64,000 nucleotides of DNA, taken from NCBI RefSeq assembly GCF_029227915.1, contig NC_079888.1, positions 5,653,001 through 5,717,000 of the forward strand, in the 5' to 3' direction. Of the stretch, positions 21,623 to 44,794 are shown piece by piece. Positions within the stretch are counted from its first letter, which is position 1. Each line of letters starts with the position of its first letter. This DNA is from Hydractinia symbiolongicarpus (Eukaryota; Cnidaria; Hydrozoa; Anthoathecata; Hydractiniidae). Below the pieces are notes generated by a model. That model was given only the letters and a program-made list of their open reading frames with translations, was not told the origin of the DNA and made no database searches. The position numbers and the translations under genes are program-made.

Positions 21623-21639
21623 TACTTTAAAGGAAGAAA

Positions 21640-21830
21640 TTTTCGCGAGGCCAAAAAATCGCGAAATTTTTGGAATTTATTTTCGCGGATAGCCTCTCCT
21701 AAGATTTTTCGCGGGAATATATTTTCGCGAATGAACACTTTCGAAATTTTTCGCGAGAAAAAATTTTCGCGAATGGCCTATTTTTAAAATATTTCGCGAG
21801 AATAAACTTTCGCGAACGAAGACATTTTTG
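21640..21830. repeat. Left subterminal TTCGCG repeat array of element 1
   Basis: About ten occurrences of the CGCG core in contexts such as TTTTCGCGAATGG and TTTCGCGGGAATAT, alternating in orientation. The matching array lies at 25040-25200. Such arrays are plausible transposase binding sites. Confidence 0.85.
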
Positions 21831-22029
21831 ATTTTTTTATACGTACCTAATTTATAAAAAACGTGTTTTTTATACAAAAAGCAGTTATATAAATGACAGC
21901 TGATTTGAGAATGTAAGTTTTTCTTTCGTTTGCACTCTTTCAAAACACAAAATAAACTATATATAAACAAGTTTTACAGGGTAAAGCTTTTCGTATTAAC
22001 GAGTAACAAAAATATTTGTTCTAACAGTG

Positions 22030-23867
22030 TCATTGTTCATCTTCCATGCTTTCAAAAGCGTCAAAAGCAGATCTTTCCCACACAAAATCACAATCCTCAT
22101 CTTCGTCGTCTTCACCGCTATCGTCATTTTCGTCGTCGTCGGCTCTTTCAGAGTATCCAATCTGCTTTTCTTCCAAGGTCAAACCACAAACCGATTGAAG
22201 CTGCTGGTTCTCCACTGGACTGCTTTCACATAACGGGTCGATCTCTTGAAATGGGTCGATTGGAGGGAGATTCTTGCTACCCAGCTGAATCGCATCAGTA
22301 ATTCCCGCTGCTGTCCATCCACTTTCAATGATACTTTTTCCTTTGCTGGTAGTCATCTCATCATAAAAGTCGACAACCCATTGAGCATGTAGGGGTTTGA
22401 GAGTAGTTAAACGCAGCTTAACATCTACTTTATCAATTTTGACCCCATCATTAAGCTGCTTTGAAATTTGATCAGCGTACCAGGTGCTGAATTTATTTGT
22501 TAAGAAGCGCTTTGCATGTCCATTGACAGTTAAATCTAATGGTTGATAAAACTTGGTCATATTTGCTGGTACATTGACGACACATATGTGGTTTTCCTTG
22601 ATCTTATTGAGGACTTCGCTCGTCATTTGGCCAGTAAATACATCCATGATAAGCAATCCTTTTTGATCAGGAGGTAGCTTGAGTGTTGCTCGTTCTTCTT
22701 TTAGGTAGGGCGAAATGATTTCTTCAATTATTTTGATTGACTCTGTTGTGTTAGAGTAGTGAGTGGGGTTTGCACTCAAACTGAAGCCGTCTGGAAACTT
22801 GAAGCGAGGTAGACTCTGTTCCGTCTTTCCCCCGTAGATCAGCTGGATAGGCAAAAACTTATTTGTAAACGTTATTCCAAATGTTCCAGTAATCGATCGT
22901 TTGTCGCTAGCAGCTTCCATGACTACGGACGCTGAACCACGTTTGGCTAGGGTGAAATTACCAGTTGGGACATATTTTAGGGGTGTTTGGTCAATGTTGA
23001 TGATCATGGAGTGTGGTATGTTATGCTTTTCAATAAGGGTGACGATCTCATGGTGAAACAAAAATTCCATTTCTTTCCTGGCACCGTCAGGAATATTAAC
23101 CTTCGAAGAAGTCTTCATCCGCCGAACGAACCCCATACGCTTGAATAAGCTTTTTGCCCAACTTGATGAATCGACATCAATGTTTCCAACGGCGCCCGGA
23201 TACCTTGACATAAGAGCTTTGGCTGTAGCCTTGGCCAAGCTTGAAGTTACGAGGGCTCCACGGGAGCTAACAGCCTTGATGTAAGATTGAACCATTCCAT
23301 CAATTTCTCCAAGTAGCAGTGGACGACCTACTGGCTTCGAGTATTTGGACACAGATTTCACAACTTCACGTTTTTCTTTCGAAGCGATTTTTATCTCCTT
23401 CACGACTTTCTCTTTGAACGATCGAATTGTGCTCTCTGTGAGCCCAGGAAACTGCGACTTGAACTTCCGTAGCGCAGCACTGTTGCCATTTTTACGTGCG
23501 TAGTCGCCAATCGTAAATCGGTCTTTAGGTTGCCATTTTACGTAAGTCTTTCTTTCCTTCGCCTCCTTAGCTTTTTCCGAGATTGCTTGCACATCAACTA
23601 CACCGAGGCCATCGACTTCAGGCAAGGATTTAGAGGTAGTACCTAAAAATAAAAATAAAGGATTTTGTAGAATAATTTTTTAAAATATACCCTGCAATAA
23701 TTTCATGATAATTCATTTGGTACAAGAGCTTTTTGCTGGCAACGAAAAATATAACACTAACCTGCAAAAGGTTCAGGAGGAGCAATGTTCTTTTCTGCAG
23801 GACTGTTTTCTTTAAGCTTATCTTCTAAAGCTTTTTTAAGCTTTTGACTTTTTCGAAGGAAAGACAT
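22030..23867 (-). CDS. Tigger/pogo transposase, two exons (join 23867-23762, 23642-22030)
   Basis: DDE transposase of the pogo/Tigger group, 572 aa by this model. Exon 1 starts at ATG 23867-23865 (MSFLRKSQKLKKAL) and ends in a GTTAGT donor. Exon 2 follows a T-rich tract ending TTTTTAG; the 119-bp intron (23643-23761) joins in frame. Exon 2 alone has no ATG at its head, so the upstream exon is needed. An N-terminal helix-turn-helix region (about residues 75-115, RFTIGDYARKNGNSAAL) and a CENP-B-like region with SSWAKSLFKRMGFVRR precede the catalytic core. Catalytic Asp residues lie in MIINIDQTPLKY (~253), GLLIMDVFTG (~369) and MTKFYQPLDLTVNG (~405), so DDD with about 35 residues between the last two. 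The C-terminus is very acidic. No stops or shifts: probably recently functional. Acts in the nucleus on the element's own termini. Confidence 0.9.
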
Positions 23868-24268
23868 GGTTGATCCTTCTCATCCAAAAAACTGTTTGTT
23901 TCCTTTTTCAAATCACACAGAAACAAAACACAACAAAAAAAATTATGTGAAATACTTTTTCGATTGCAAACCGGGGGTATTGATAGAGTGAAAATCTCTT
24001 TTGAAAATATAGTTTGCATCTCTTATCTTAATAAAAAAGAAGAAAAGCTCACAAAAACATTTCGAAACTAAATTTAAAACGTCTTTGATGTTTATATTCT
24101 AAAGAATTAAGATTTAGAACAACATAACCCCCGGCATAAATTGACTTATCCTTTTATGTTTGGATCGAATCAGTCTAGACGGTTTCGAATTTAGCAGACA
24201 CCTCTTTTAGACAAAATCGAACGACAAATCATCTTTGTCATCACTTATGTGTACAACTTTCTTGCATC
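23868..24268. promoter_or_regulatory. Divergent promoter region between transposase and HIRAN genes (element 1)
   Basis: About 400 bp separates the two start codons, which point away from each other, so the segment must hold both promoters. It is AT-rich. No defined operator was recognised. Confidence 0.55.
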
Positions 24269-24883
24269 ATGTCTTCGACAGAAAAGATTTTAAAATTTTC
24301 TTCAGCTGTAAGAGGTTTTCATTATTATCAGAGATTATGGTTCCCAAGAGAAGAAGAAACACTTAATTGCTATTATGAACAAGACAACGTATTTGATCTG
24401 TTTGCTATAAAAACCGAACAGTGCGATTCTGGAACAACAGTGGGACACTTACCCAGAAAAATTTCTAGGATAACAAAGTTTATTCTAGACAGGGGTGCAA
24501 GGATTACGGCTACTCTAACTTCAACAAATTATCGTCGATCTCCATTGGTTCAAGGAGGATTGGAAATCGCATGTGAAGTCACTGTGAGAATGCCAGCTAC
24601 AATAAAAAACCACATGATTTTGGATCGTTATAAAGAATTGCTGAATGATTATTATATCGAACCAAAAGATGAGGAAATTCTCGGAAATTTTCTAGCACTT
24701 TCAACTACTAATGCTTCGCCACCAGAAAAAGAAACTGCTCCGAAAAGAAAGAAGAAAAAAACCACAACAAACGTCAATGAGAATATCCCGGACATAAGGG
24801 TTATGTTCCGTCGCCAACAAAAAAATCACAATAAACAAAACAGGGACGACGCCAAAGCCGAAACAGTAATTGTAATAGATTAA
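24269..24883 (+). CDS. HIRAN-domain protein carried by a Tigger/pogo transposon
   Basis: A 204-aa protein. Residues ~8-110 form a HIRAN domain: FSSAVRGFHYYQRLWFP, LNCYYEQDNVFDLFAIK, then TTVGHLPRKISRITKFIL and GGLEIACEV. HIRAN domains in HLTF/Rad5 bind 3' ends of single-stranded DNA at damaged or stalled sites; free-standing versions are known. The C-terminal tail has a basic nuclear-localisation-like run (PKRKKKK, 158-164) and ends in ETVIVID (198-204), a hydrophobic stretch resembling a SUMO-interacting motif. The gene is head-to-head with the transposase within one TIR-bounded element. A plausible job is helping the transposase at DNA ends, or steering repair after excision; this is inference. 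Single exon, good ATG context (GCATCATGTCT), stop at 24881-24883. Confidence 0.85.
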   Translation: MSSTEKILKFSSAVRGFHYYQRLWFPREEETLNCYYEQDNVFDLFAIKTEQCDSGTTVGHLPRKISRITKFILDRGARITATLTSTNYRRSPLVQGGLEIACEVTVRMPATIKNHMILDRYKELLNDYYIEPKDEEILGNFLALSTTNASPPEKETAPKRKKKKTTTNVNENIPDIRVMFRRQQKNHNKQNRDDAKAETVIVID

Positions 24884-25039
24884 ACAAAACAAAAAGAAAA
24901 TTTTTAAAAGATATCGAAAAACTGTTTACGTTATTACTTCCTAATGCTTTCATTTTTTAGAGTGAGAAGTGCCATATATAAAACCTTGCACATTTTTCTC
25001 AAACTTTTTCCCAATAAGGTATTTGTTATGTTGCAAAAA

Positions 25040-25200
25040 ATTTTTTTCGCGGGAATTTATTTTCGCGAATCAAGCATACTTGAAAATTTCGCGGGAATTT
25101 ATTTTCGCGAACGACCCCTTTTGATTTTTTTCGCGGGACTTTATTTTCGCGATTTTGGCCAAAATTCGCGAAGTCGCGAAAATTTCTTCCGCGAAAATTT
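25040..25200. repeat. Right subterminal TTCGCG repeat array of element 1
   Basis: About nine CGCG cores in units such as TTTTTCGCGGGAATTTATTT and TTTTCGCGAACGA, mirroring the left array and ending in the terminal inverted repeat. Confidence 0.85.
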
Positions 25201-25214
25201 CTTCCTTTAAAGTA

Positions 25215-25880
25215 ATTCTTCAAACAAGATTGGAAAAGGTAAGGTATTTAGTTCAATCCGGGTGACGATGCATTCCGCCGAGTATGAAGGATGGTTTGAA
25301 AGTCCTTGAAATTAAACTTGGAGGAATCAAATGCAGATGTGACGTTGTGAGTATAGGCAAACCAGGAAGAGTCGAAAGCGGTATCTCGTCTAAGGGATCA
25401 ACTAACACGGAAGATTTGTGGGCATCTAGGGATTCTTTAGGAACATTAAGCCTAATAGAGCATTTGGATCCAGCAGATCTTTACCAGCCTGATAAGGATT
25501 CTTACCAAATGCACGGTTTGCATTGCAGATCTTCCATCGCTTTTCTCTGTTCCGTTCTCCCCGGCGTAATGTTGTTAACTTTAATTTAACATTGCCTAGC
25601 GAAGTTTGTAAATTTTCCCTCTGCATTAAGTCCGACACGCTTTCCAGTTGTTGAAGAAGAGAATTTTTTTCTTTTACCAACGAGATGGACTGTAAGGCAC
25701 GTCAGTTTAAACCAGATGGGGCATGTGTGGGTTGAGCCTTAAATCCAAAGAGAAGGGAAGCATGATGGTAAATTGTGGATTCCCGAATTTCCATTCTCAC
25801 TGACAAAGGGTGAGATCCTAACAGGTTGTGGAAAACAGCGGTGGTGAAGAGCGACTAATTATATTAAAATCGATATCTAA
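25215..25880 (-). pseudogene. 5' part of LINE copy B (region upstream of RT)
   Basis: Continues copy B on the far side of element 1. The sequence next to the insertion reads QSCLKNYYIPVKW across the joint. Further upstream are SSPGLN-IPY (the 'SSPG.NGIPY' block before RT motif 1), then RAFGKNPYQAGKDLLDPNA and a coiled-coil-like KEKNSLLQQLESVSDLMQRE. Stops and frame changes are present. The true 5' end of the element was not found; homology fades at about 25880. Confidence 0.65.
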
Positions 25881-26639
25881 AGGGGTAGTCCTAATACGGT
25901 CTGGGTCAATAACATTTGGAAAATCCTGGTTAAAAAGATTTGGATTTTTTGTAGACCAAAATAAATCCCACGGGCCGGCCTAAGCTTGGTGGGTGCGACA
26001 GATAACAATTGGGTCGGGGCTGCCAACTTTAGTAGCAATTCCGAACTGACGTTAAAATTTTTGACGTCGTCACAAAAATGTTGATTTTTTAGTTAACTTT
26101 ATCCTTCTGTGTATTTTTCCTCGTTTGGGCTGCGTCGATGCCGTTTTTTTATCGTTTAGCTAAATTTCCGTTTTTTAAATATATCTTCCTTGCACTAATT
26201 ATATTCCACGAAATACTCATAATTTTCTTGTAAACAAAAGTCATTTCGCGCGAAAATGTCCGAATGGCACGGATCAAATATTGGGTGATCGGAGTTCAAG
26301 TCAGATGCCAGTGGTGACTCGATAGAAAAAAATCTTTGAAAATTTCAAAATTTGTTATTTAAGGTACAAAAAAAAACGATGGGAAGGCCGGTTTTATGTA
26401 ATTAATAGGCTAAGTTAGTGTTTAGTTCCTTTTTATAGTTCAAATAAGTCTGTTGAATGAATAAAAAAAATCGCTACCGGATTCACGCGCGTCTCCCGCT
26501 GTACCATAGCTACCAATTTCAGCTCTATTTTTTTTTTTTTAATTTACTCCGAGTCATGGTCGGAATTGCGTTTTTTGGTAACCTATGTTTTATAAAATCA
26601 CCTAAAACTAGAATTTTGAAAAGAACCTTTCTTTGTCTG
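25881..26639. other. Stretch without recognised gene
   Basis: Possibly more of the LINE 5' region, but no motif was recognised. The longest frame (26457-26660) is driven by T-rich sequence. Confidence 0.35.
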
Positions 26640-27240
26640 TCTTACAATGGACTATTCTAAAGGAATAAAACAAAAATATAAATTTTACACATTCTATACA
26701 AAACAATAATATCACTTGTACTGATTATAGTAATACTTAGCTGTACAATGAGAAGAATAACTGGGTCAACATAGATTTTAGCTTGGGTGGGGTGAAAGAG
26801 ACTAATTGAGTAAAACGGGGGGTGTTTTGAACAAAATTCCATGAATGAATGGACTGTAGTCGAATAGAATTTGAGCCAAAAGATTTGGTGGACACAGTGG
26901 GGGATTTATCAGACCAAGAGAAGATCCACGAGTCCGATGAGAATGGGAAAAGTCAAAATTGAAAGTATAGAGAATTGCCTTAAGAGGATTCTCATGAAAT
27001 AGATTGTAAAGAGAAGGTAAATTTTTATATGAACCAAATCAGGTAATTTCAAAATGCCAAGATTAAAGAAAAAGAGGGTGGAATGGGATTGTTGCTGTTC
27101 AAATGAGATGAGTCTCACTGCGCAACGTTGAAGACAGTAAATACGGTCAGTTGGCCACAAATTTCATTGCAGTAACGTATGTTACTACCAAAAATAGCAT
27201 GGTAGACAGATTTTGTGGAACAAAGTGTTGAAGTTACGCT
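26640..27240 (-). pseudogene. C-terminal fragment of a different LINE (CR1/L2/jockey-like) RT protein
   Basis: Minus-strand reading gives RIYCLQRCAVRLISFE, then LFFFNLGILKLPDLVHIKIYLL and, further downstream, TRFGSNSIRVQSIHSWNF. This follows the post-RT C-terminal pattern of APE-type LINEs ('LQ.RA.R.I', 'LF..L.IL.L.D', 'R....S....G...WN'). The frame is interrupted and the fragment is short; clade not assignable. Confidence 0.55.
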
Positions 27241-27678
27241 GTAGCTCTATTAGCCTTGAGTTTGATGGCAAATATATAATGTATTAATTTTTTTCAGTGC
27301 TTCGAAATTATCGTGAATTTCATCGAGATTAAAAATAAGTTTACACATGATTTATGCAAAATTATAGGTTTGCAATTTAATTTTTATTTTATTAAATTTT
27401 TTAAATATTTTATGTATATTTTTATGTATATTTGTACTTTACTTATACAAGTATATTGAAGTTCATTTTTTTAAAATTTTTAGTTTCTGAAGATTTACAC
27501 CAGAAAACGTATATTTATTTAGTACAAGAAAAACTCTAGGTTTGCTCATTTACAAGATTTTTATTCGTAAATAATAGTCAATCATAATATGTCCAAATTT
27601 CAACATACTTGTTAGAACATTTCATATAATATTATTCATTTGACATTCACTATGTAGGTTACTCTGCTTATTGTCAAC
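27241..27678. other. AT-rich stretch without recognised feature
   Basis: Very AT-rich (27350-27500 nearly all A/T). Could be promoter region for the exon starting at 27679, but no motif is claimed. Confidence 0.35.
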
Positions 27679-27888
27679 ATGGCCACTAATTTTTCTGAAG
27701 GGAATATATTTAGTGAGAATGGTAAGCATATTTTAGGAAATGTTTACATATACACGCCATTAAATTTGCCAAAAAAATATGGTAATTTCCTCAATAGTGT
27801 TGAACATTGGAACTCCACTTGTTAGCAGCTCACCAGCAAAGGAAAAACAAGAAATATCCTCCGAAATAAAATCCCTTGACGGTGATAA
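27679..27888 (+). pseudogene. 5' exons of a spliced gene interrupted by the Harbinger-type element
   Basis: Exon 1 (27679-27721) starts ATG and reads MATNFSEGNIFSEN, ending with a GTAAGC donor. Exon 2 starts at 27798 after TTTCCTCAATAG and continues in frame as VLNIGTPLVSSS, AKEKQEISSEIKSLDGDK, until the 3.7-kb element begins at 27889. On the far side, from about 31594, a matching-style frame resumes (FSSEEWPLSIDTEISYAIF), one nucleotide out of phase. Product unknown; it may be the accessory gene of the Mutator-like element that follows. Confidence 0.5.
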
Positions 27889-28126
27889 ATTCACCGTTCC
27901 CATAAATAGTGAGATGCGCAATGCATTGTTGTACTTTAAGTCAAGAAAAAAAGCCGAAATTATAACAATTAAATAACCGTAGCAATATATATGGAGAATA
28001 ATCATGTTTTGTTACAAAATAATTATCTCCATGATCATAGCTCTTTGTAAAAACTTTATCTCTGTAATAGATTAATCAAGTGTTTAACAAAACAAAGTAG
28101 AAAAAGGCTTATTTGAGGGAAGGATA

Positions 28127-29800
28127 GTGAAACGACAACTTATAATGGATATTAATGAAGATTTAAGTATATTTTTTACGGATAATGATACTGCCCTTGA
28201 GCCTAGCTTTTCTCAAAGCTCTAGCACGGTATCAAGGCCAGTTTTCAGAGAAATTTCAAATCAGGAAATTGAAAGAGACGAAGAAGAGGAACTGACCTGT
28301 AGTATAAAAGAATGGTATAAAGACTTATCTCTTTTGCCTGCCATTTCTCATAAAAAAACTACAAAAGTATATGGTAGAAGATACTTTAGAAGTGGATAAT
28401 AAATCTAGAGGTGCAATTAAGCACAAAATTCTGGGATACAGGTTATTTAAAGAGCATTTCGTGAAGGTCAGAGTAAAACCAAATATGGTTGCAAATACAA
28501 GTTTGTTTATTGTTAAATGCCTGGTAACAGCCTCCATGAAGAAAATTCAATACAGCGTGTACATTCACCTTTGTCAAAAATCTGGAGATGTTTTATATGC
28601 TAAATGCAACTGCAAAGCTGAAGCAGGGGGTTGTTGTAAGCATGTCGCTGCAGTCCTTTACCAGCTTGTAGATTACAGGGAACTAGAACTGAAAAGTGTT
28701 CCTGATGATAAAGTATGTACAGATGTTTTGCCACAGTGGCATGTACCTGGTGAAGCTGCGAACTCTGAGGCTATTTTATTTTCAAACTTGCAGTTTGAAA
28801 AGGCTGATTTTGAAAAGGACAAAAATAAAAGTCGCAAAAGACCAATAGTTACTGGTGACCGAAAGCACTGTTCGACACCGTTATTTGCAAGAGAACCGTC
28901 AAGTGAAAAAATGAAGCAGCTTAGTGGGAACTTATTAAAACTTAAACAAGGAGTAACAATGGCTACTTTGCTACAAGGAAATGACTATGAGCCTTGCTCT
29001 TTTTTAACAACATCTGAGATGGAAGCAGAGGAAAATGCACCAGTTAGAAAACATATTAATGAACTCATTGAAAACTTTAATTTTGATATTGAAAGTACCC
29101 TGCTGACAGAGCTTAATCTTAATTTCGTGAAAAATCATTTGAGTGTAACATGCAAAGAAATTAAGACTATTGAAGAGAAAACGATAAAGCAATCTAATAG
29201 CAAAGCGTGGTTTGCAGAACGAAAAAAAAGGTTAACTGCATCTAATTTTGGTAGTGTAATAAATAGGCGTAAAGGGGTCTTTCCAACTTCATTGTTGAAA
29301 AAGATTTTGTGTCAAAATAAGTCTTTTTTTTCAGAAGCCTGTAATTATGGAATTTCTACGGAAAGCATTGCAGTAAAAAAATATGAATTAACAAAAGAAG
29401 TTACTGTGGAAAAATGTGGTTTTTTTATAAATCCTAAATGGCCTTGGTTGGGTTGCAGTCCAGATGGAATTGTTAGCGAAACAAAAGCAATTGAAGTTAA
29501 ATGCCCTTTTTCAAAAAAAGATTTGACGATCGAAGAAGCATGTGGCGACAAAAGTTTTTTTTTTTGCAAATGTGTGATGAAGAACCCATATTTAAACGGA
29601 GTCACATATATTACTTTCAGTGCCAAGGTGTCATGGCAGTAACTGGAATTAGTGAATTGGATTTTATAGTTTATACTGAAAAATTTATGCACATTGAAAC
29701 TTTAAAGTTTGAGAGTGAAAAATGGAACACGAATTGGTTACCATGTCTGACAAAATTTTATTTTGACTTTATATCCAACGAAATATTTAAAGATACATAG
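28127..29800 (+). pseudogene. SWIM zinc-finger / YqaJ-like nuclease gene, two homopolymer frameshifts
   Basis: The second gene of the ISL2EU-type element. After an acidic N-terminal part, the frame moves at an A-run near 28354-28360. The next frame has a SWIM zinc finger (YAKCNCKAEAGGCCKHVAA, CxC...CxH, about 28600-28655). It is followed by a linker and a YqaJ-type exonuclease domain: WFAERKKRLTASNFGSVI, NYGISTESIAVKKY, WLGCSPDGIV and AIEVKCPFSKKD (catalytic D...ExK), about 29205-29520. A second frame change at a long T-run near 29555 leads to the conserved YYFQCQGVMAVTG and a C-terminus at 29800. YqaJ proteins are lambda-exonuclease-fold nucleases; in these transposons their role is unknown but may be end processing. 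Apart from the two homopolymer shifts the gene is intact. Confidence 0.85.
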
Positions 29801-29845
29801 CATATATATTTTTATATACATTTTATATTCGTATATATATATTGT

Positions 29846-31518
29846 TTATTCCTCATTCTGTGCTATAAGTGGTGGAAGAAAATTGACTAAATAACAGCAA
29901 ATTACCCAGACTTTATTTAAATCAGGTGCCATTGACAATGGAAATATTGACTGTAAAATTCTAAAGTTTTTAACTCGATTAATTGCTCTCTCCACATGAA
30001 CTCTTACAGAAGCAATTCTTCTAGTTTCAAGTTCTTCTCCCACATCTAGTTGTGTTTTACCTTTTAGAAACGCAGGTATATTAAGAGTTACTCCATCAGG
30101 TAAATCCTCTTCAATATCGAATCCTCGATCAGCCATTAACGAGTCACCATGTTCTAATAAATTTAAAATTCCACTGTGTCGAGTAATTTTTTGGTCACTA
30201 CTTCTTCCAGCATATAAATCAGATACGAATGTAACTGCTCCACTTGGTGCAATCCCTACCAATCCTTTAGCAGTGTTGTGATGTTTATAGCTGGAAAAAG
30301 TAGCTGATTGGCTGCGGTATGAAGAAGGCATCTCTGTAAATATTTCTGTACAGTTTATTATAACACGTGTTGTGGGATATAAATCTTTAAAACATTTTGG
30401 CATTGTCTCTGCTACTGTTTGTTTTGAAGCCCATATAGGAAGTACTCTCAGTTGAGTGTGCAAAAAGTCTATCCAAGTAATGAATATTCGACTTACATTA
30501 CTAGTCGGCATGTTAAATCGTATTGCCATATCTTCAATAGGAAATCCACAGCGAAGTCTAATAAGAATCATAAAAAATTCTGTTTCAGCTGTTGTAGCTC
30601 TGGATCGCCCACGTTTACCATTATAGGTTTTTGTGTTTTCAATGTTAGTATTTGATCCCTAGTATATTAGAGAGTCAGCAGCTGGTTGTAAATATTCAAG
30701 TACAAGTTTAAACATTTTGTAGCTTTCAAAACCAGTGTAAAATTTAAAATGTGCAGTGTTGTGTTTAAATCTGTCCACTGTAAATTTATTTTCATCAACT
30801 TCTGTTTGTAAAGAATTTATCTCTGCTAATAAAGAGTTTTCTTTTTTTGTTATTTCAACTTTCATATTAGCTATGGTTGCTTCCAATTTTTGAATCTCTT
30901 GCTGTAATGCCTCTTCTACAGTCAGCTCAGGATCTTTAGGTTTTTCAGGGGAAGGTAGCTTTCTTTTTAAAACAAGACTAGTCATGGTGTTTCTTTTTTT
31001 AACCGGTGTAGGTGCTATAGTTTTTGGTACAATCGTTGGAATATTGTTCATGTACGTTTTTTTACCACCTTCAAAATGAGCAGAGCATACTCTATGGCCT
31101 GATGTTGGTTTAGAGTTTTTTCTACTTATTTTTGAAAGCCAAGTCTTTCTTAAACCTTCATCTTTTGGAATGACGTAAAACGACAATTCTCTGTTTCTTT
31201 TTGAGTTGTTGTAACATAAAGGTTTAAACCTTCATCTTTTGGAATGACGTAAAACGACAATTCTCTGTTTCTTTTTGAGTTGTTGTAACATAAAGGTACA
31301 CAACATGTAAATCCTCCCCCAGCTGCAGCGTTTGTTGTTGAAGTTCCTGGCAAATTCCCAATGTGTGTAGCATTCTCTACGGTGAAATCTGTAGATAAAT
31401 TGTCTAAGGAAACTTCGATGTTGTTTGGTGAAATAAAGCTTTGAAAAAAGCTGTTTTTAGGTGTTGAACAAGCTGATAAAATATCTGTATTAAGTGTTTT
31501 TTCTCCTGACGCCTCCAT
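29846..31518 (-). pseudogene. THAP-domain DDE (Harbinger/ISL2EU-type) transposase, inactivated
   Basis: The N-terminal part starts MEASGEKTLN (31518). It contains a C2CH THAP zinc finger: CCVPLCYNNSKRNRELSFYV, then KTWLSKISRKN and HRVCSAHF (about 31310-31075). A 74-bp tandem duplication (31151-31298) cuts the domain. A coiled coil (about 30790-30930) follows. At 30661-30659 a TAG replaces the Trp codon usual in the LIYWGS-type segment. The DDE_Tnp_4 core continues in the same frame: FFMILIRLRCGFPIEDMA, VSDLYAGRSSDQ, SLMADRGF and VHVERAINRVKNF. The first catalytic Asp position reads VIINCTE, an Asn (AAC) where related proteins have Asp. Duplication, nonsense codon and D-to-N change each make it inactive. 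Convergent with the YqaJ gene. Confidence 0.85.
31151..31298. repeat. 74-bp tandem duplication within the THAP coding sequence
   Basis: Two adjacent, essentially identical 74-bp copies beginning TAAACCTTCATCTTTTGGAA. Since 74 is not a multiple of three, the duplication shifts the frame. The high identity indicates a recent event. Confidence 0.92.
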
Positions 31519-31591
31519 GATTGTTTATGTTTTTGACTACATTTACCACAATGCATTGCGAAAACTCTCTTTTACGGGAACGGTGAATTAA

Positions 31592-33011: not shown

Positions 33012-34703
33012 ATGCCTAGAGACAGAGCAAGAAAAAGAACACGAAAGTTCCAAGGCAACAAAAAATTATGTGAATCTGCTTCAGCGAAAAAGACCGACTT
33101 GTTATGTGCTAGTGCAAACAAAATCAACATCCCTGAAACCTCTTGTGGCAATGACAACTATAATGTAATTTTAAACTTTGGAATTTTGAAACAGCTGTTA
33201 GAATTGTTTTTACAATGCCCTTGGTGCAAAAATAATGACGTATGTTTACTGAACAATCTTTCAAAGCGACAGGGATTTTCTTATCAGCTGGTTATCAACT
33301 GCAACGATTGTTTATTTGAAAAGTCCTTATACAGTTCTGAAGTGTCTTCTGTGAAAGCACTTACTGGGAGAGCTCCTTTTAAAATAAATCTTCAGACTGT
33401 ATTGTCTTTTCGAGAAATTGGAAAAGGCTATCAATCCATTGAATTGTTTTCAGCGCTGATGAACATGCCACCGGCTTTTTCTAAACCAACTTACACCAAC
33501 CTAAATGACATTTTACACACCACTTACAAGAAAGTTGCTAACAAATCAACTGCCTCTGCTGCTGAATGTTTTAGAAAAAAAGCAGGCGATGTAAATGAAA
33601 TTCAAAATTGTCAAGTTTCGGTTGATGGCACGTGGCAGAAAAGAGGTCACGCATCTATAAACGGTGTCGTGACTGTAATTTCTACTGACAGTTTAAACGA
33701 TGATTGGATAATGATTGGAAGGCAAATCTTGTGTGTCAGGCAAATCATATTGGCAGTTCAGGTTCAATGGAAGCTGCTGGCGCTAAGGAGATTTTCCATC
33801 GCTCTGTTGATAGAAACTTAGTGTCTCCATCACCTATATACTGAGTATATAGGTGATGGAGACACTTCATCGTTCTCTGTAGTGTCAGAGTCAAAGCCCT
33901 ACGCCGATTACATCATAACAAAATTGGAGTGTGTCGGTCATGTGCAAAAACGACTTGGGACACGTTGTCGTAATCTGTGCCAAAAATTAAAGGGAAAAAT
34001 ACTTTCAGATGGTAAACGTATCAATGGGAAAGGTAGATTAACGGAAAAAGCCATTAAAACCTTGCAAAACTATTACGGTATGGCAATTAGGCAAAATGTT
34101 AATAACCTATATAAAATGAAAAAGTGTGTATATGCTGTGTTATATCACATAAGTAACATTGCAGATTTGATTACTCGTCATCAATTCTGTCCTAGAGATG
34201 TCAACTCTTGGTGTTTGTGGCAATCTGATCAAATTACTGGTAAAAGTACATAGAAACCCAAACTTAGTCTCCCATTAGCGTTGAAAACTGAACTGACTGG
34301 CATATTTAGAGATTTATCGAGTGAAGAATTGCTTTCAAAATGCACGCATGGAAAGACACAGAACAATAATGAGTCGCTGAATGGAGTAATTTGAAAAAAA
34401 TGTCCAAAGTCAGTATATGTGTCAAAGAAGATACTTGAATTAGGTGTCTACTCTGCAATAATCGAGTTCAATGATGGTTCCTGTGGTCTAAAGCCTGCTT
34501 TTGATTTACTTGGTTTCAACAATTTGTGCTTTCTACAAAATCGGTTAGCGAAACGCGACACCAGCAGAATTAACGCCATGAAGAGGAAATCAAGTAAAGC
34601 CGGGATTTCTCAAAGAAAACACCTAAGAGCTGTTCGGAAAGGATTCATAGACACAGAGAAAGAAAATGAACCCAAACCATCATACTCTACAGGAGATTAC
34701 TAG
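33012..34703 (+). pseudogene. Mutator-like transposase, broken
   Basis: Starts MPRDRARKRTRKFQG. A zinc-ribbon-like segment follows (LQCPWCKNND and VINCNDCLFE, about 33210-33320). Then comes the catalytic part of a Mutator-like transposase domain (Pfam Mutator, PF20700 type): QVSVDGTWQKRGHASINGVV (Asp, about 33620-33670), a frame change near 33720 into ANHIGSSGSMEAAGAKEIF, YIGDGDTSSFSVVSESKPY (about 33850-33905, GDGD), and KLECVGHVQKRLGTRCRNL. It ends in TGKST*, then CTHGKTQNNNESLNGVI and the C-terminal frame 34419-34703. It is disrupted by one frameshift, an inserted palindrome (33820-33866) and two stops. Terminal repeats were not defined. Confidence 0.75.
33820..33866. other. Perfect 22-bp inverted repeat with 3-nt loop inside the transposase ORF
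   Basis: The right arm GTATATAGGTGATGGAGACA is genuine coding sequence (YIGDGD). The left arm is its exact reverse complement, and the loop is TGA. The inserted arm introduces a stop. This is the signature of a template-switch (snap-back) mutation. Confidence 0.92.
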
Positions 34704-38089: not shown

Positions 38090-38639
38090 AATGAAAATTA
38101 CAAAGTGAACGCACAATGATAAACTCGACCAGTTAAGCCTTCCGGAACAAAACGCAATCCGAAACGTGTGAACATGGTCCACATGACAATTATACTGATA
38201 TGTTTTGCTACACGAATTTTGTTATTTTATTAAATTTTCACAAAGAAAGAAGAAACTGAATGGCGCCTGTTACTGCTTAATCAAATTTCCAAAGTTGGAA
38301 TTGAGTTTATAGTTGTCCTAACACGTTGCGTCGTTGCTTAAAACATGAAGAAAAGTACGGTCACAATATTTAAAATTGATCTGAATAAAATGAGGTCAGT
38401 TCCACTTCAAACGAAGCTCGATGCATGTTCCATCCACTAAGCCTCAATCATCCCGAATGGGAGTTGCAAGATTACACTTCAACGATCTTTTCACAACAGC
38501 TGTCATGGCAGAATAGCACATCTATATGGTATTTGTCGTGGTTCTAGACTTCTCCTTGTTGACCAAAATTTCAATTAGCAAGCTTTGTTACCATACCTGT
38601 CAAACAAACAAATTTTTCCAAACTTTTAAAAAACGTGTT

Positions 38640-38840
38640 GACAGTTTGTTACACCAGTTCCCAACCATGTGTGATGAAATTTCCTTTAGCAACAAGTACA
38701 GATTAGACGCTATCATTAACGACCGCTGCGTTTCAGAAGTCAATTCATCTCCCTTGAACAATTCATCCTTAGCAGTGGTCCCTTGCTTAATGGTGTACAA
38801 CCTTGCATCCTTTTCCTTAAAGAGCTTCAGCAAGGGGGTT
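38640..38840 (+). pseudogene. USP C-terminal fragment, copy D
   Basis: Reads EISFSNKYRLDAIIN, then after a deletion NDRCVSEVNSSPLNN and, more downstream, LAVVPCLMVYNLASF. The first phrases follow the USP His-box neighbourhood ('Y.L.A.I.H.G...CND..V') and the last is the degraded equivalent of the VVPCKQSLLNGVQPYILFLE segment of copy B. The GHYT core is deleted. It is inactive and more diverged than copies A and B. Confidence 0.5.
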
Positions 38841-38844
38841 TGAC

Positions 38845-39150
38845 TATTCTTATTTTTTTAATTTTTTTTTATTGGAGTCTTGTCTTTGGAGAGTGACGAC
38901 TCCACTTATTACCCCAGTCAAAATAAAAGCGAAAAACCAAAAAAATTACGGCAGCAAGGGGATTTGACTGTACCAGGTCCTATCTTTGGAGAGTGACGAC
39001 TTCACGTAATACCCCAGTCAAAAAGGAAAAAACAAAAAAAAAACGGAAAACAAAAAACAAAATAAAAATTATGCCAGCAAGGGGGTTTGACTGCACTGGT
39101 CTTATCTTTGGAGAGTGACGACTCCACTTCTGACCCCAGTCACACAAGAT
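38845..39150 (+). repeat. 3' UTR tandem repeats of the USP-LINE (copy D)
   Basis: Three units of about 115-120 bp with GGAGAGTGACGACTCCACTT, ACCCCAGTCA and AGCAAGGGGGTTTGACTG blocks; unit starts lie near 38880, 38990 and 39108. Confidence 0.88.
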
Positions 39151-39188
39151 TGTACAGAGTAGGAATGATGAAAAGTTATGGATAAAAG

Positions 39189-39252
39189 AAATGTCTAGTT
39201 CCTGCTGAAGTCTGTTCGCAGACCTCTTTTGAGGTGACTCAGCTAGACATTT
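39189..39252 (+). ncRNA. Conserved 3' UTR fold of the USP-LINE (copy D)
   Basis: Outer stem AAATGTCTAG / CTAGACATTT; first hairpin GTCTG-TTCG-CAGAC; second hairpin CCTC-TTTT-GAGG. All three stems are perfect, making this the best-formed copy of the fold in the window. Confidence 0.65.
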
Positions 39253-39475
39253 GCGGTAACTTGGTTCAGGAATATGAGTCGAAACCCTTGTACCCTTTAC
39301 GGAAGTCCTGTCCTATTCTCTCTGTCTGTTTGTTTGTTCAATGGAAAATGGAAGAATGGTGTTCCTTTATATGAGCATATTCTTTAGAGGAGCAAAACCT
39401 TCAGAATTTAAATTTTAAGACTTAACTGGTCAAGTTTATCATTGTGCGTGCACTTTGTAATTTTCATTCTTTCTA

Positions 39476-40340
39476 CTATTTTTTACCAGGACTTAACTTT
39501 TTCCATGCCTTAAAAACAAATTGGGGGAGACAATAAATTTCCCTAGCGGTTCCAATTTACCCCAGCTAATCAATCCTTGGCGTGTTAGTGTACCGTGATA
39601 TAGGAGTTTGCTCACTCCCTTCTCTCTTGAGATACTGTAAGAAGCATAGCAAGGGGGCTAGACTTTTTGTCTTGTCTTTGGATTTGACGGTCCCACTTGT
39701 TAACCCAGTCCAGTAAGGAGGCAGAGTTTGCTCACTTTGCCTTTAGGATTGACAATCCTGCTGCCCTGAGTCATTTTAGAAGCTTTGCATGAGGGTTCGA
39801 TGTTCTTATTTTGTCTTCGTGGTTTGACACCCACGCACTGGCTGGCACTGTCATTAGGTTGACCCACTGCTGCAATGATCTGTGTAAGGCTGAGTGTTGG
39901 GCGCCCTTAAAACGTGTAAAGCTACAGCCAGGTTCACAAGTCCTGGCGCACAGATCGTTGCCTGCTTTAGTTTACATTTGTTCCGTTAGGAATTATTCTA
40001 AGATTTACCCGTTTAACGATAGTTTCGTCATAATAAGTTTTATTTATTTTACGTGTGCCTATTAATTCAGTTCGAATTGCCTAATTGTTTTTTTTTGTTG
40101 TCTTTTTATGTTTTTTTAATAGTGTTTTGTGCTTTACCACTGTTTTACGCATCCTGTTTAATGGTCAATGTATTTTTTCTGAGAGAATCCTTGTTAAAAG
40201 GGAGGGTTTTGCTATTATGCAGAATCTTCGTAGAGTTACAACCTCTATAATATCGAACCAGCCGTCATTAGACAAGCTATACCACAACAGCCAGCTGTTT
40301 TGTCACTTCATCATCAATTAAGTTGTTACCCTTAACTTTA
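39476..40340. other. Degenerate relative of the LINE tandem repeats, then AT-rich spacer
   Basis: Between about 39645 and 39840 there are blocks AGCAAGGGGGCTAGACTTTT, TCTTTGGATTTGACGGTCCC and CGTGGTTTGACACCCACGC that echo the 3' UTR tandem-repeat unit with different sequence, probably another subfamily. From 39850 to 40340 nothing specific was recognised. Confidence 0.45.
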
Positions 40341-40344
40341 TCAT

Positions 40345-41525
40345 AAGAATCAACACAATACTGTTAAAGTTTCTTACCAGAATGAATAGGGCTAAAATTT
40401 TCCCGATCGTCTACACGATAAGTGTCATACTTCAACATTGTAGTAGTATTTCTAGTCCGGGTTGCACGTTCGGCAACATGGGGTATCCCATAATACCAAC
40501 CTTGCTCACCCCTTGGAAAAAATAGAGGATAAACCATCGGATCTAAATTTGCAGATAACTTAGAAATATTTTGCAAACAATATCACTGTTTCAAGGAGGA
40601 GCTCCATCTTGGCCAACAAACACTGTGGCTGCTTCGTCCTGATGTGGCAAGTTATATTGCCTTCGATCACTGCCAACCCTCATGTACATGCGTTCTGATG
40701 AAACACGGTTTTCGGCTGCTGCCCGAGCTTTTTCGTCAGCATCAATGCAGCATCAAAAGGGCTAACACTGTTCATTACATCTTGAACAGTTTGCATTACA
40801 GCCATTATTTTCAGGACCATTCTTTCATTGAGTGCTCTACCTGCTTCATAAATATAAAGTTGGTTAAAAACAGAGTATGTCCCTCAGTAGGGTGAAGATC
40901 CCCAACACGATGCCATATTTGACCACAGTTACGAAAGCATGGTGGTCCACGGCCAGGGGGAGGATGCAGATTTGCTCCAATTGAAGCAAACAAAACTGCA
41001 CTATTATACTTACGTATATTTGCTTGAAAGTTTCGTGCCTGAAAAATATCGTTATTTGTTAACAGTTGCCTAAACTGCTCAGGGTAAGGAGACAAATTAT
41101 TGAGTGCGAACTCTTCATTTTCAAACTTTACAGCTTGACAATACTCACATTTTTTGTCCATAACATCTAAATAACAAAAACATTAGGCAATGCATGTTGA
41201 CGTGCTACATTATAATAACGGGCATTTCTGCGACCACGAACAACAAGATTTCCTTGTGCATTTAATTGTCTTCTATTTGCAACCAGCTCAACATTCTGCC
41301 TTTTTCGAGCAATAGCTTGCCTTTCAGCATTTTGAGCACGTCTACTCACAGCATGATCAGGATTTTCTAAACGACGTACAGCAACATGCCTTTCAGCATC
41401 TCGAGCACGTCTATTCGCAGCTTGCTCCTTACTTTCAGCATAACGAACTGCTGCCTGCCTTACTGCATCACTATGACGCCTGCTGTTAACTAACCTCTGA
41501 TTATTTCCAGATAGTATCAATATGC
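40345..41525 (-). pseudogene. Helitron Rep/helicase protein, N-terminal fragment
   Basis: On the minus strand: Arg-rich repeats (RRARDAERHVAVRR and similar, about 41480-41200), then CEYCQAVKFENEEF, FQANIRKYNSAVLFASIGAN, GRGPPCFRNCGQIWHRVGDL (41161-40850), a shifted frame with MYMRVGSDRRQYNLPHQDEA and TVFVGQDG (about 40715-40610), and LDPMVYPLFFPRGEQGWYYG (40530-40470). This is the order of the helitron-like N-terminal region that precedes the Rep domain. The Rep catalytic HUH and helicase motifs are missing because the fragment ends at about 40345. Its 5' part is cut by the TTAA-flanked element beginning at 41530. Several frameshifts. Confidence 0.75.
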
Positions 41526-41641
41526 TTAAGGACACGTTTTTTTTGCGTGGCAAATTTATTCGGTTGCAAAATTATGGAAAATCACATAAATAAACATTTC
41601 TGGAGCTACAAAATTTATGCTGCAGATGTATTTTCATAGCA

Positions 41642-41769
41642 TGATTCGACACAAAGACGATTATTTTTCAGAATATGAGCATGATTGGAGTGAATTGTCA
41701 TTTTACGAAAAAGATCTTGCAGTGCTCATTAATGCTAAAATACTTCAAATTAGTGATTTGGAGTCGTAA
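41642..41769 (+). CDS. Small ORF in the TTAA-flanked element (left side)
   Basis: A 42-codon frame starting MIRHKDDYFSEYEHDWSEL and ending ISDLES before a TAA. Charged, aromatic-rich and protein-like in composition, yet too short to assign. It may be an exon or remnant of the element's protein. Low confidence. Confidence 0.3.
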
Positions 41770-42134
41770 AATAAGAGTTACTGATGGGGAAATTTGAAAG
41801 AGGAGCAAGTTTGAACAAATTTTAGAGTAGATATTGAGTATTAAAATTCATTTTTTACTTAACAATTAATCCGATACATACAATTTATTAACATTTTAAA
41901 TAGTGTGGACTGTAATATAACACTTAATATGAGAAAATAGACTAAAATAAAAGCAATTTTGGAGCAAATACCGTATTTCCTCCAATAAGCGCCGCCCTCT
42001 ATTAAGCGCCGCCCTCTAATAAGCGCCGCACCCTCAAATGCGAATTTCGAAATAAGCGCCGCCCTCTAATAAGCGCCGCACCCTCAAATGCGGCGCTTAT
42101 TAGAAAATCAAGAGAAAATGAGATTTCAATGCTT

Positions 42135-42896
42135 TTATTCGAACTCTATAGTCTTCTTATTGCAATATTCATTTACATTAAGTTCTAAATAGCTAAATTT
42201 ACATTTCTTCTTATTAAGTTCCTCATAAAGAATGTTTGCAATTTTACTGTTGGTTGAACAGCAAAGAAACTTGGCAGGGACGACCAAGCCAAGCTCTCGT
42301 TTCCTTTTTCCCGTTACTTTTGCGATCATCGTGTTGTTTTTATCAGATTTCAAAAATTGTTTCGTTAGTTTGGATAGTTCAATGGGTAAATGTCCGACTA
42401 AAAACTCATCATCCTTTTCTCCCAGATCGTCTGAATCTATTTCGACAACTTCTTTATTGACCTCTTTAGATACTGGTTCGATCGCGACCTCAGTTTCTTT
42501 GACTCCTTCAGTTTCCTTTGCTGCTTTACTTCCTTTGGTTGATTTTCTTCCTTTGGCTTTGGTTACTTTGTTCGTTTTGTTTGTTTCGCTTGGTTCACTT
42601 TTCTCGTTTTCAACCGCTGGTGTAGTACTTGATTCTGATTCTGTCTTTTTATTTTCTTCTGTAGGTTTTTTGTCGGATTCATCTTCACCTTTTACTGTAA
42701 CCTGTGGCTTTAGTTTGTATACACCTATGGCGTTTTGATCATATTCTTTGGCCTCTTCTCTTTCGTCTGGTTTGCAGTTAAGTTTCTCTCCCAGAGTTGG
42801 AGTCCAAACATCTTTGTAGACATGGTGGCCTCGTATGTTTGTTTCAAACTTCACAATAAAGGCAAATGAAAAGTTTCTTGGAATAGTTCTAGCCAT
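42135..42896 (-). CDS. HIRAN-domain protein with a long internal insert, carried by Tigger element 2
   Basis: A 253-aa protein starting MARTIPRNFSFAF. The HIRAN domain is split: the first half FETNIRGHHVYKDVWTPTLG and YDQNAIGVYKL (residues 18-62), then a ~100-residue K/E/S/T-rich insert, then FLVGHLPIELSKLTKQFLK and a final strand LGLVVPAKF (165-210). The fold halves match HIRAN ('RG..+Y...W.P..GE.L', 'D..A+.V', 'VGHLP..+S'). The insert contains EVVEIDSDD (149-157), a strong candidate SUMO-interacting motif with acidic flank, and basic patches (KAKGRKSTKGSKAAK) that could direct nuclear entry. It is head-to-head with the transposase, about 175 bp apart. As in element 1 an accessory role at DNA ends is plausible but unproven. 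Confidence 0.82.
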   Translation of the reverse strand: MARTIPRNFSFAFIVKFETNIRGHHVYKDVWTPTLGEKLNCKPDEREEAKEYDQNAIGVYKLKPQVTVKGEDESDKKPTEENKKTESESSTTPAVENEKSEPSETNKTNKVTKAKGRKSTKGSKAAKETEGVKETEVAIEPVSKEVNKEVVEIDSDDLGEKDDEFLVGHLPIELSKLTKQFLKSDKNNTMIAKVTGKRKRELGLVVPAKFLCCSTNSKIANILYEELNKKKCKFSYLELNVNEYCNKKTIEFE

Positions 42897-43072
42897 GTTT
42901 CGCCCTCTCTTGAATGTACAGCGAAGTCATTGCATTGTTTGTTTACCTTTTGAAAAAATGGAATGCGGGAAGCTATTGTAATGCTTGATTTTGGTACGAA
43001 AAATGAAGTCGTTCTAGTGTATAATAAACAAAATATTTCTAGCGAGCGAGGTGTGTGTGTGTGCAAAATAAC
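42897..43072. promoter_or_regulatory. Compact divergent promoter between HIRAN and transposase genes (element 2)
   Basis: 176 bp between the two likely start codons, so both promoters must lie within it or overlap the genes. It contains a short GTGTGTGTGTG run near 43052. This arrangement ties expression of the two genes together. Confidence 0.6.
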
Positions 43073-44491
43073 ATGGCTCCAACCGAGAATTCACACAAAG
43101 GAGAAAAAATCAAATCCTATTCCTTGGATCTGAAGAAGGAAGTCGTGGAATATGCAATCAATTATTCAAATCGCCAAGCAGGAAGGCGATACAATGTTGA
43201 CGAGAGGAGAGTTCGTGAATGGAGAGCAAAAATGGAAGACATCAAAGCCAGGGTTGCTGATAAAGGTGGACTGAAAAGAAGAAGACTTGATGGTGGGGGA
43301 AGAAAGCTCACGAACGACGACTTAGAAGAAGAAGTACTCATCTGGATAATGGATCGTAGATCAGCAATGCTTAGAGTTTCTCGAAAATTAATAATGAAGA
43401 AAGCAAAGATTATCCATGACAAAAGCACCGATGACCCTGCTGTAAAAGAGAGCTTTGTAGCCAGTCGTGGATGGTTGGAAAAATTTATGAAAAGAAACGG
43501 ACTTTCTTTAAGGAGAAGAACAACTACCGCTCAAAAGAATCCTAGTTGTATGGTCGACAAACTTGTCATGTATGTTTTACAGTGCCGACGATTACAAAGA
43601 AAATTTAAATACTCCGCTGGTTCAATCATTGCGATGGATGAAACTGCAATTTGGTCTGACATGCTCTCAGGGACAACTGTAGAAAGCAAAGGAAAGAAAG
43701 ACATTCCTTTAAAGACCACTGGCCATGAGAAAGTCAGAGTTTCTGTGTGCCTTACAGCAAAGGCTGATGGAACACGGCTCAAACCATTCATCGTTTTTGG
43801 GGGTGCAAAGCGGGAATGTAATGCTCTAAACGAAGAATACAAATCTAAATGTATTATCGCTTCATCTTCAAATGCTTGGATGAATGAGGAATTGACATTA
43901 GAATACATTAAAACAGTTATTGGTAAATTTTCTTTTCAAAAGCGATTGTTAGCTTGGGATTCCTTTGAATGCCACATGATGCAAACAATCAAGCAACGTT
44001 TGAAAAGTTTCAATGTTGATTCAGTTATCGTCCCCGGTGGTTGTACTCCGTATATTCAAGCCCCCGATGTTTCGTGGAATAAGCCATTCAAAGCTCATGT
44101 TACCGAAGCTTACGATACATGGCTTAGTGAAGGGATCCACGAATATACAAAAGCAGGTAATATGAAGCCACCTCCGCGAAGGAAAGTAATCGAGTGGATC
44201 TTAGAAGGTTGGAAAAAGCTGTCAAGTGAGCTCATCGTGAAATCTTTTAAAACATGCGGTTTAAGCCTTCCAGTCGATGGTAGTGAAGATGACAAGATCC
44301 ACTGTTTTAAAAAGGAGGGAGCTTGTCCTGATGGGGCATCACGGCTAAGAGAATCCCTGAATATCTTGCAAGAGGAAGAGAGTCAAATAAATCCTTTTGA
44401 GAACATAACAGATTCGGATGTTGAGGATGCATGCGGGCCGTTTCATTTGATTGACTCTGATCAAGAAAGCGACGAAGAAATTGATGTTTGA
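43073..44491 (+). CDS. Tigger/pogo transposase (element 2)
   Basis: A single-exon 472-aa DDE transposase; I use the ATG at 43073 (MAPTENSHKGEKIK) because its context is better than the upstream in-frame ATG at 43055. N-terminal psq-like helix-turn-helix (SLDLKKEVVEYAINYSNRQA, VDERRVREW) is followed by a CENP-B-type DNA-binding region (WIMDRRSAMLRVSRK, SRGWLEKFMKRNGLSLRRR). The catalytic core has Asp in SIIAMDETAIW (~189), RLLAWDSFECHMM (~296) and CTPYIQAPDVSWNKPFK (~332), i.e. DDD with about 35 residues between the last two. The tail is acidic (SDVEDA, SDQESDEEIDV). No stops or shifts, so it is probably a recently active copy. It differs greatly from the element 1 transposase. Confidence 0.9.
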   Translation: MAPTENSHKGEKIKSYSLDLKKEVVEYAINYSNRQAGRRYNVDERRVREWRAKMEDIKARVADKGGLKRRRLDGGGRKLTNDDLEEEVLIWIMDRRSAMLRVSRKLIMKKAKIIHDKSTDDPAVKESFVASRGWLEKFMKRNGLSLRRRTTTAQKNPSCMVDKLVMYVLQCRRLQRKFKYSAGSIIAMDETAIWSDMLSGTTVESKGKKDIPLKTTGHEKVRVSVCLTAKADGTRLKPFIVFGGAKRECNALNEEYKSKCIIASSSNAWMNEELTLEYIKTVIGKFSFQKRLLAWDSFECHMMQTIKQRLKSFNVDSVIVPGGCTPYIQAPDVSWNKPFKAHVTEAYDTWLSEGIHEYTKAGNMKPPPRRKVIEWILEGWKKLSSELIVKSFKTCGLSLPVDGSEDDKIHCFKKEGACPDGASRLRESLNILQEEESQINPFENITDSDVEDACGPFHLIDSDQESDEEIDV

Positions 44492-44794
44492 AATTATCTT
44501 TGTTATATTTGATAGAAAGAGAACAGGAAAAGACACGATAATTCACCCGTTATTTCTTTCTCGTACGTTACTTACCCCTCTATAGAACCCCAAATCTATC
44601 AAAAAAACTTTTACTAAGGATAGCATTCAACCAACGGATTGAATTTGAAGAATAGGCAAAAACTTCAGAAACTTGAAATCTGAAATTTCGAAATAAGCGC
44701 CGCCCTCTATTAAGCGCCGCCCTCTAATAAGCGCCGCACCTAAAATCACAAAAATTAAATAAGCGCCGCGGCGCTTATTAGAGGAAATACGGTA

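Follow-up and report, generated by a model that had tools for sequence, protein, structure and literature searches.

A HIRAN gene accompanies the transposase in pogo/Tigger transposons of Hydractinia symbiolongicarpus

The pogo/Tigger transposons are among the most widespread DNA transposons of animals and are the source of CENP-B-type host genes. Two-gene transposons are known in eukaryotes, ISL2EU and PIF/Harbinger being examples. For pogo elements, passages of one of two surveys (PMC7386202/PMC7325037) describe one or two open reading frames (ORFs) encoding transposases, and a term search of the main text of both surveys did not find the word HIRAN. Passages of a review state that the pogo transposase binds PCNA and that the PCNA-interacting protein (PIP) box is conserved in Tigger, and call the relevance of this unclear (PMC5371812). 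We analysed a 64,000-nucleotide stretch of the Hydractinia symbiolongicarpus genome (contig NC_079888.1, positions 5,653,001 to 5,717,000; hereafter the window), in which an earlier note had described two transposons that each carry a transposase gene and a divergent HIRAN gene. Both were found again at the same coordinates (element 1 proper at 21625-25212, element 2 proper at 41971-44792), with the same terminal inverted repeats (TIRs) and the same layout: the HIRAN ORF lies head-to-head with the transposase ORF within a TIR-bounded element flanked by TA. By the TA duplication, the TIRs and a DDE_1 match above the Pfam cut-off, both are pogo-type elements. As shown below, they belong to a class of two-gene pogo/Tigger transposons, in which a DDE transposase is accompanied by a dedicated HIRAN gene that precedes the catalytic exon on the other strand, either divergent or nested in a predicted intron. 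The earlier note knew of no described pogo/Tigger system with a HIRAN partner, and none was found in the literature that we searched by whole word (Repbase and subscription literature lying outside it): no paper joined HIRAN with pogo or with mariner, and the HIRAN papers mentioning transposase, transposable elements or transposons included, as judged by their listings, none on eukaryotic pogo elements.

The TIRs of element 1 (23 nt plus TA, starting CTTTAAAGGAAG) are 100% complementary, and those of element 2, which start CCGTATTTCCTC, are 96% complementary. DDE_1 (cut-off 22 bits) matches the transposase ORF of element 1 with E=3.8e-8 (33.6 bits) and that of element 2 with E=1.5e-16 (60.9 bits), and candidate catalytic aspartates are visible by eye in both. 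HTH_Tnp_Tc5 reaches only 12.6 bits in element 1, below its cut-off of 22.2; it is present in element 2 (E 2.5e-12, 47 bits, together with BrkDBD, E 4.3e-5) and in the loci L063, L065 and L079-L081 described below. A predicted first exon, one among several frame-keeping splice pairs in a sequence prediction, would bring the element 1 transposase to 572 aa. In the genome, the element 1 HIRAN has 8 full-length stop-free copies with 96-100% identity (among the best 150 of 784 candidates) and the element 2 HIRAN 13 full-length copies with 99-100% identity (among the best 150 of 597). At the 23 element 2 loci fetched, TA precedes every element end found and the flanks differ in 23/23; 22 of them yielded the HIRAN-side end, and L045 only the other one. 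The near-identity of the copies suggests recent movement of both families. A full-length open element 2 transposase at C10:20064754-20066169, with no element 2 HIRAN match listed nearby, is possibly a natural HIRAN-less copy.

Against Pfam PF08797, the second genes of element 1 (20.5 bits) and element 2 (16.4 bits) both score below the cut-off of 24.7, which is also missed by L063 and L079-L081 and is reached by L061, L065 and L068. These low scores are what could be said for reading the pairs as host genes, as neighbours by chance or as a product of weak hidden Markov model (HMM) matches; profile, fold and profile-profile evidence for HIRAN argue against it. A profile of 30 element 1-type sequences matched the HLTF HIRAN in the PDB (E 1.7e-6), and the structure predicted for the element 1 protein, with a mean predicted local distance difference test (pLDDT) score of 83.1, gave 12 best Foldseek matches that were all HLTF HIRAN (best E 4.1e-6). 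By profile and predicted fold, the second gene of element 1 is firmly assigned as a HIRAN of the HLTF kind. The element 2 profile gave no sequence match to HLTF in the PDB, where it hit nothing but a synaptonemal complex protein, twice (E 0.05 and 0.12); the six best Foldseek matches of its predicted structure (mean pLDDT 73.5, the insert of about 95 residues being modelled with low confidence) are again HLTF HIRAN, but with E 2.6e-3 to 2.2e-2. The two HIRAN families are homologous by hhalign (probability 98.6%, 33% identity), and it is mainly on this homology to the element 1 HIRAN that the identity of the element 2 protein depends. The earlier note's naming of both genes thus holds, more weakly for element 2.

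The position of HLTF D94, one of the DNA-binding residues of that protein, is an aspartate in 20/20 aligned transposon HIRANs, and the N91 position is an asparagine in three of four lineages. The transposon HIRANs have in common a GxHxYxxxW motif and, outside the HLTF stretch matched by the profile, a C-terminal hairpin (TGKxxN..GxGxxVPC / RRSPLVQGGLEI / GKRKREVGLVVP) that includes basic residues. Intact examples measure 135-253 aa; the insert of the element 2 protein is lysine/glutamate-rich, and most listed relatives, of about 140-165 aa, are without it. Protein-database searches returned 433 relatives of the element 1 HIRAN and 181 of the element 2 HIRAN (both E<=0.01) and 1266 for the query A3 (E<=1e-5), three sets that may overlap and consist of protein records whose genomic context is not visible. 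The L061 HIRAN starts and ends as in NCBI H. symbiolongicarpus LOC130657458 (P0072). Queries A1 and A2 had no relatives among viral contigs, nor A1 among genome contigs, these being viral and prokaryotic records that are silent on other animals.

The recurrence of the pairing was measured in one species, in the 480.9-Mb genome of H. symbiolongicarpus. The best 150 of 778 DDE_1 candidates were scored, and at least 110 of these 150 listed matches have a HIRAN within 2.5 kb, as compared with 0.34 co-locations expected by chance. In 109 of the 110 the HIRAN precedes the DDE_1 match and runs antisense to it; the remaining one is on the same strand, downstream. Among matches to the element 2-type transposase (T2-like), a HIRAN lies within 1.5 kb of 38/43 near-full ones, always antisense on the 5' side, and accompanies 54 of the 70 rows entered overall (once on the 3' side); within the first 16 rows, which are the element 2 family, it was nearby in 14. 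These reverse counts, of HIRAN near a transposase, cover the element 2 transposase and DDE_1 only. Three DDE_1 loci, L079, L080 and L081, had been picked from the list as intended HIRAN-less controls, yet all three carry a HIRAN: it lies antisense within a predicted intron, which separates the exon for CENP-B_N and HTH_Tnp_Tc5 from the DDE_1 exon. Together with the multi-copy TIR-bounded elements, these counts make chance proximity, host genes or false HMM matches scarcely credible, and fold, copy number and co-location led us to reject them. Capture in a single dead copy was likewise rejected by the 8 and 13 full-length HIRAN copies, and the earlier note's view that the pairing is not random capture is borne out by its recurrence across copies and families. 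That note had named an absence of the gene from most full-length copies as the result that would speak against it; most near-full T2-like copies and most listed DDE_1 matches carry the gene. It had described the pair in two elements, and its presence in both stands. The reading that the pair is peculiar to these two was rejected: L079-L081 carry it too, and the DDE_1-wide counts place it at most of the matches listed. Among the listed DDE_1 pogo-type matches of this genome, the pairing is almost certainly real and widespread.

Further families were identified by tblastn of the window proteins against the fetched loci, followed by TIR and ORF analysis; in those listed at the end of Table 1, the HIRAN gene lies 5' of the transposase and is antisense to it. 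The locus L078, with a 676-aa frame, was considered as a HIRAN fusion and rejected: a HIRAN piece lies beside an ORF of THAP/DDE-like appearance. The HIRAN protein encoded at L073:670-1221, which exceeds the Pfam cut-off with 35.7 bits, is another one, and its surroundings gave no match to these transposases.

Table 1. Features of the two window elements and further families with the same gene pair (positions are those of the window)
Feature	Position	Strand	Remarks
Element 1 plus TA target duplication	21623..25214	.	25-nt perfect inverted repeat, TA included, at both ends
Element 1 left TIR	21625..21647	+	
Element 1 left subterminal TTTCGCG array	21637..21828	.	42-43 bp period
Element 1 transposase, main (predicted second) exon	22030..23642	-	ORF 22030-23625; predicted acceptor 23643
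Element 1 transposase, predicted first exon	23762..23867	-	donor CAG/GTTAGT (slash at the exon end), prediction only
Element 1 HIRAN gene	24269..24883	+	204 aa, divergent from transposase
PIP-like motif DIRVMF, element 1 HIRAN tail	24791..24808	+	motif class in 62/75 non-redundant tails
C-terminal SIM-like VIVID, element 1 HIRAN	24866..24880	+	relaxed terminal motif in 50/75 tails; cf. Srs2 IIVID
Element 1 right subterminal array	25040..25205	.	
Element 1 right TIR	25190..25212	-	
Element 2 plus TA target duplication	41969..44794	.	27-nt inverted repeat, 96%
Element 2 left TIR	41971..41995	+	
Element 2 left subterminal AATAAGCGCCGC array	41979..42104	.	
Element 2 HIRAN gene	42135..42896	-	253 aa, with ~95-aa low-confidence, low-complexity insert
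Element 2 transposase	43073..44491	+	472 aa; Pfam-scanned as ORF 43055-44491
Element 2 right subterminal array	44692..44784	.	
Element 2 right TIR	44768..44792	-	
L061/L062			TIR TACCTTAAGGGAAC; H1-like with T1-like
L069			TIR TACTTTAATTGGAG; H1-like with T1-like; transposase frameshifted in this copy
L063/L064			TIR TACCGTATTTCCTCTAAAG; H2-like with T2-like
L074			TIR TACCGTAAATGCTC; H2-like with T2-like; transposase ORF of this copy ends early
L065/L066			TIR TACAGTGGAATCCC; third lineage; L065 DDE_1 E 2.2e-38; L066 transposase split
L075, L076			decayed members, same layout

The co-phylogeny check proposed in the earlier note was carried out as a correlation of pairwise distances between HIRAN and transposase in ten families, for which the L069 transposase entered as one piece, that of L074 as 403 aa and those of L079-L081 as the DDE_1 exon alone. 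The Mantel coefficient was r=0.935, with p=5e-5 being the lowest value that 20,000 permutations can give, and both genes fall into the same groups: element 1 with L061 and L069; element 2 with L063 and L074; L065; and L079, L080, L081. On these distances, HIRAN co-diverges with its transposase in the Hydractinia genome. Nonsynonymous differences per site (pN) were 0.29-0.40 for HIRAN and 0.27-0.36 for the transposase, against mostly saturated synonymous values (pS) of 0.73-0.86; between element 1 and L061, pN was 0.358 for HIRAN and 0.346 for the transposase, with pS saturated at about 0.8. The two genes evolve at like rates, which fits purifying selection on both, and both indeed look to be under it. 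These values also bear on the proposal that the antisense HIRAN is retained mainly for transcription control, its divergent or intronic promoter dampening the transposase and its protein being secondary. The nearly invariant position of the gene speaks for this proposal; purifying selection on HIRAN comparable to that on the transposase, and the 433, 181 and 1266 related proteins from the database searches, argue for the protein and make the proposal very unlikely.

What the HIRAN protein might do is suggested by HLTF. According to passages of one study (PMC11237066), the HLTF HIRAN binds 3'-OH and reads the 3' ends exposed in a Cas9 post-cleavage complex. A HIRAN fragment on its own, according to the same passages, interferes both with the removal of this complex by HLTF and with resection. 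A standalone transposon HIRAN could act likewise for a transposase complex. In the mechanism that we propose, the HIRAN protein would bind free 3'-OH DNA ends after transposase cleavage, either those of the transposon or, during repair, those at the donor gap and nascent ends. The bound protein would cap the ends, compete with the host HLTF/Rad5 machinery, which locates such ends by its own HIRAN domain, and stop it from dismantling the post-cleavage complex. The pair would be linked to replication or gap repair via PCNA, in some families through a PIP box of the transposase and in the element 1 lineage, whose examined transposases are without one, through a HIRAN tail bearing a PIP-like motif and then a C-terminal SUMO-interacting motif (SIM)-like sequence, in the order found in Srs2. 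The analysis suggests that these transposons come with a dedicated protein for dealing with DNA ends, and the end-capping, PCNA-linked mechanism is our best current guess, held with a little less than even confidence.

The PCNA link was examined in both proteins. A C-terminal PIP box is seen in three of the eight transposases (L065 QSSIKDYF, L080 QTVITDFF and L081 QTSILSFF); relative to the consensus Qxx[I/L/M]xxF[F/Y] given in passages of PMC5371812, L080 and L081 fit and L065 has Y for F. For the HIRAN tails of the element 1 lineage, 121 proteins were reduced to 97 by dropping 24 with tails of <60 aa and to 75 by dropping 22 near-duplicates. A DIRxMF/DIRxFF-type motif is present in 62 of these 75 tails (mean 1.16 and maximum 5 in 1000 shuffles) and a SIM-like end in 50 (mean 0.37, maximum 3), with patterns that were written after the tails had been inspected and shuffles that disregard the relatedness of the sequences, a point that counts against this part of the mechanism. 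In the H2 family, the PIP pattern occurs in 3/120 and the strict SIM-like end in 0/120. Passages of PMC4030836 report that Srs2 binds SUMO-PCNA through a PCNA motif plus a separate SIM formed by its last five residues, IIVID. The same IIVID is the C-terminal SIM-like motif of P0009 and P0015. On a broader reading, HIRAN would be an ancient second gene, as a rule obligatory, in much of the animal pogo/Tigger superfamily; it would cap ends and serve as a decoy for HLTF/Rad5, working with PCNA, and the PIP module would have moved between transposase and HIRAN. It would have been overlooked because it lies antisense, either upstream or in an intron, and because it often fails to reach the Pfam cut-off. 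We regard this reading as possible, if doubtful.

Several results weigh against the end-capping mechanism. Among the matches listed, 40/150 DDE_1 matches are without HIRAN; so are 2/16 of the first T2 rows, including a full-length open transposase, and the DDE_1 locus L082 (a 664-aa open frame), a single locus whose fetched 5' flank of 2.2 kb contains no HIRAN. Conversely, L067, L068, L070, L071, L072 and L077 are HIRAN-only derivatives without transposase. L070 (C3:22643709), the only one for which a transposase remnant was shown, is a 2.1-kb derivative that has lost the catalytic part of the transposase and kept an open HIRAN ORF with QKDIRSFF, its HIRAN being one of 10 equal-scoring genome matches. 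A role of HIRAN at excision ends is one that we infer, and the residues corresponding to Y72 and Y93, which border the dinucleotide cavity of HLTF according to passages of PMC4666394, are replaced in several transposon HIRAN lineages; the asparagine of the N91 position is missing from the element 2 lineage. Five of the eight transposases (element 1, L061, element 2, L063 and L079) are without a terminal PIP box, the full PIP pattern, even slightly loosened, occurs in only 6/75 H1-type tails, element 1 itself having no more than DIRVMF, and the element 2 HIRAN has neither motif, its transposase having no PIP.

Two other roles for the protein were considered. In PIF/Harbinger, the Myb-like second protein recruits the transposase or aids synapsis. 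On this model, HIRAN would be a sequence-binding helper that recognises double-stranded arrays or TIRs and recruits the transposase or aids assembly of the synaptic complex. Both window elements carry subterminal repeat arrays, other families such as L061, L063 and L065 have family-specific repeated subterminal motifs, seen as additional inverted matches at their ends, the shared hairpin beyond the HLTF match includes basic residues, and the gene is kept by HIRAN-only derivatives. Yet lineages with differing end repeats have similar hairpins, both within a lineage and in part between lineages. Recognition specific to the arrays would lead one to expect the opposite, and we consider such a helper somewhat unlikely. 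The amplification of HIRAN-only derivatives, as in the L070 family with its 10 equal-scoring matches, would also fit a regulator of the host response or of the transposase, one that competes with HLTF/Rad5 or with PCNA signalling and acts in trans on replication or checkpoint signalling, with no direct role at the ends of the transposon itself; so would the dominant-negative effect of the isolated fragment on HLTF reported in PMC11237066, in the passages cited above. A benefit purely in trans would not suffice to account for how often HIRAN is linked to the transposase and for its diverging along with it, and this role is, in our judgement, unlikely. We retain end capping with a PCNA link as the preferred reading, and the interpretation of the earlier note, taken as a whole, is partly supported.

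Other observations concern the surroundings of the elements. Element 1 sits inside a minus-strand reverse-transcriptase ORF (RVT_1) of a retroelement, 20012-21738 around 21623. Its arrays (TTTCGCG/GCGGGAA) and those of L061 (TTTTGGCGGGAA) look like E2F sites, judged by the E2F consensus; 17/21 occurrences of TTTCGCG in the window, both strands counted, fall within the ends of element 1. Such E2F-like subterminal arrays could tie expression to S phase. Elsewhere in the window, a YqaJ exonuclease ORF (28371-29642, plus strand) faces a DDE_Tnp_4/HTH_Tnp_4 transposase ORF (29846-30571, minus strand), the pair at 28371-30571 being possibly a two-gene element of the ISL2EU type, which would add a further transposon with a partner of the recombination kind. 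A Mutator-like transposase ORF lies at 33012-33821 (PF20700, E 1.3e-25) and a tandem repeat at 59232-59708 (129-bp unit, 3.7 copies, 88% matches).

Should HIRAN be required by the majority of autonomous elements in several lineages, reconstructions and tools built on the transposase only may miss a partner. This would also provide a handle on why pogo-family transposases bind PCNA, the question left unclear in the review passages cited above (PMC5371812). The pairing also raises the question whether transposons shield their cut ends from remodelers of the HLTF/Rad5 type.

The Hydractinia elements share with Drosophila pogo and mammalian Tigger the TA duplications, the short TIRs and a DDE_1 transposase, with HTH_Tnp_Tc5 in element 2, L063, L065 and L079-L081, CENP-B_N in L079-L081 and, in L065, L080 and L081, the transposase C-terminal PIP box that passages of PMC5371812 report for both; they differ by the added HIRAN gene, antisense on the 5' side or within a predicted transposase intron. 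The transposon HIRANs share with those of HLTF/Rad5 the fold, the sequence profile (family 1) and the aspartate at the D94 position, whereas they are standalone, without helicase or RING, have an extra conserved hairpin and often have Y72/Y93 replaced. A PCNA motif with a hydrophobic C-terminal SIM recalls the SUMO-PCNA receptor Srs2 (IIVID in Srs2 according to the passages of PMC4030836, VIVID in element 1); here the motifs are on a transposon HIRAN protein, and the proteins being unrelated, the likeness is one of resemblance only. Coupling of transposition to the sliding clamp is described, in passages of PMC5371812, for bacterial transposition proteins of Tn7 and IS families, which are bacterial and have no HIRAN. 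ISL2EU (YqaJ plus DDE) and PIF/Harbinger (Myb-like plus DDE) resemble the Hydractinia elements in joining a transposase with a dedicated DNA-processing or DNA-binding partner, and differ from them in both the transposase superfamily and the partner.

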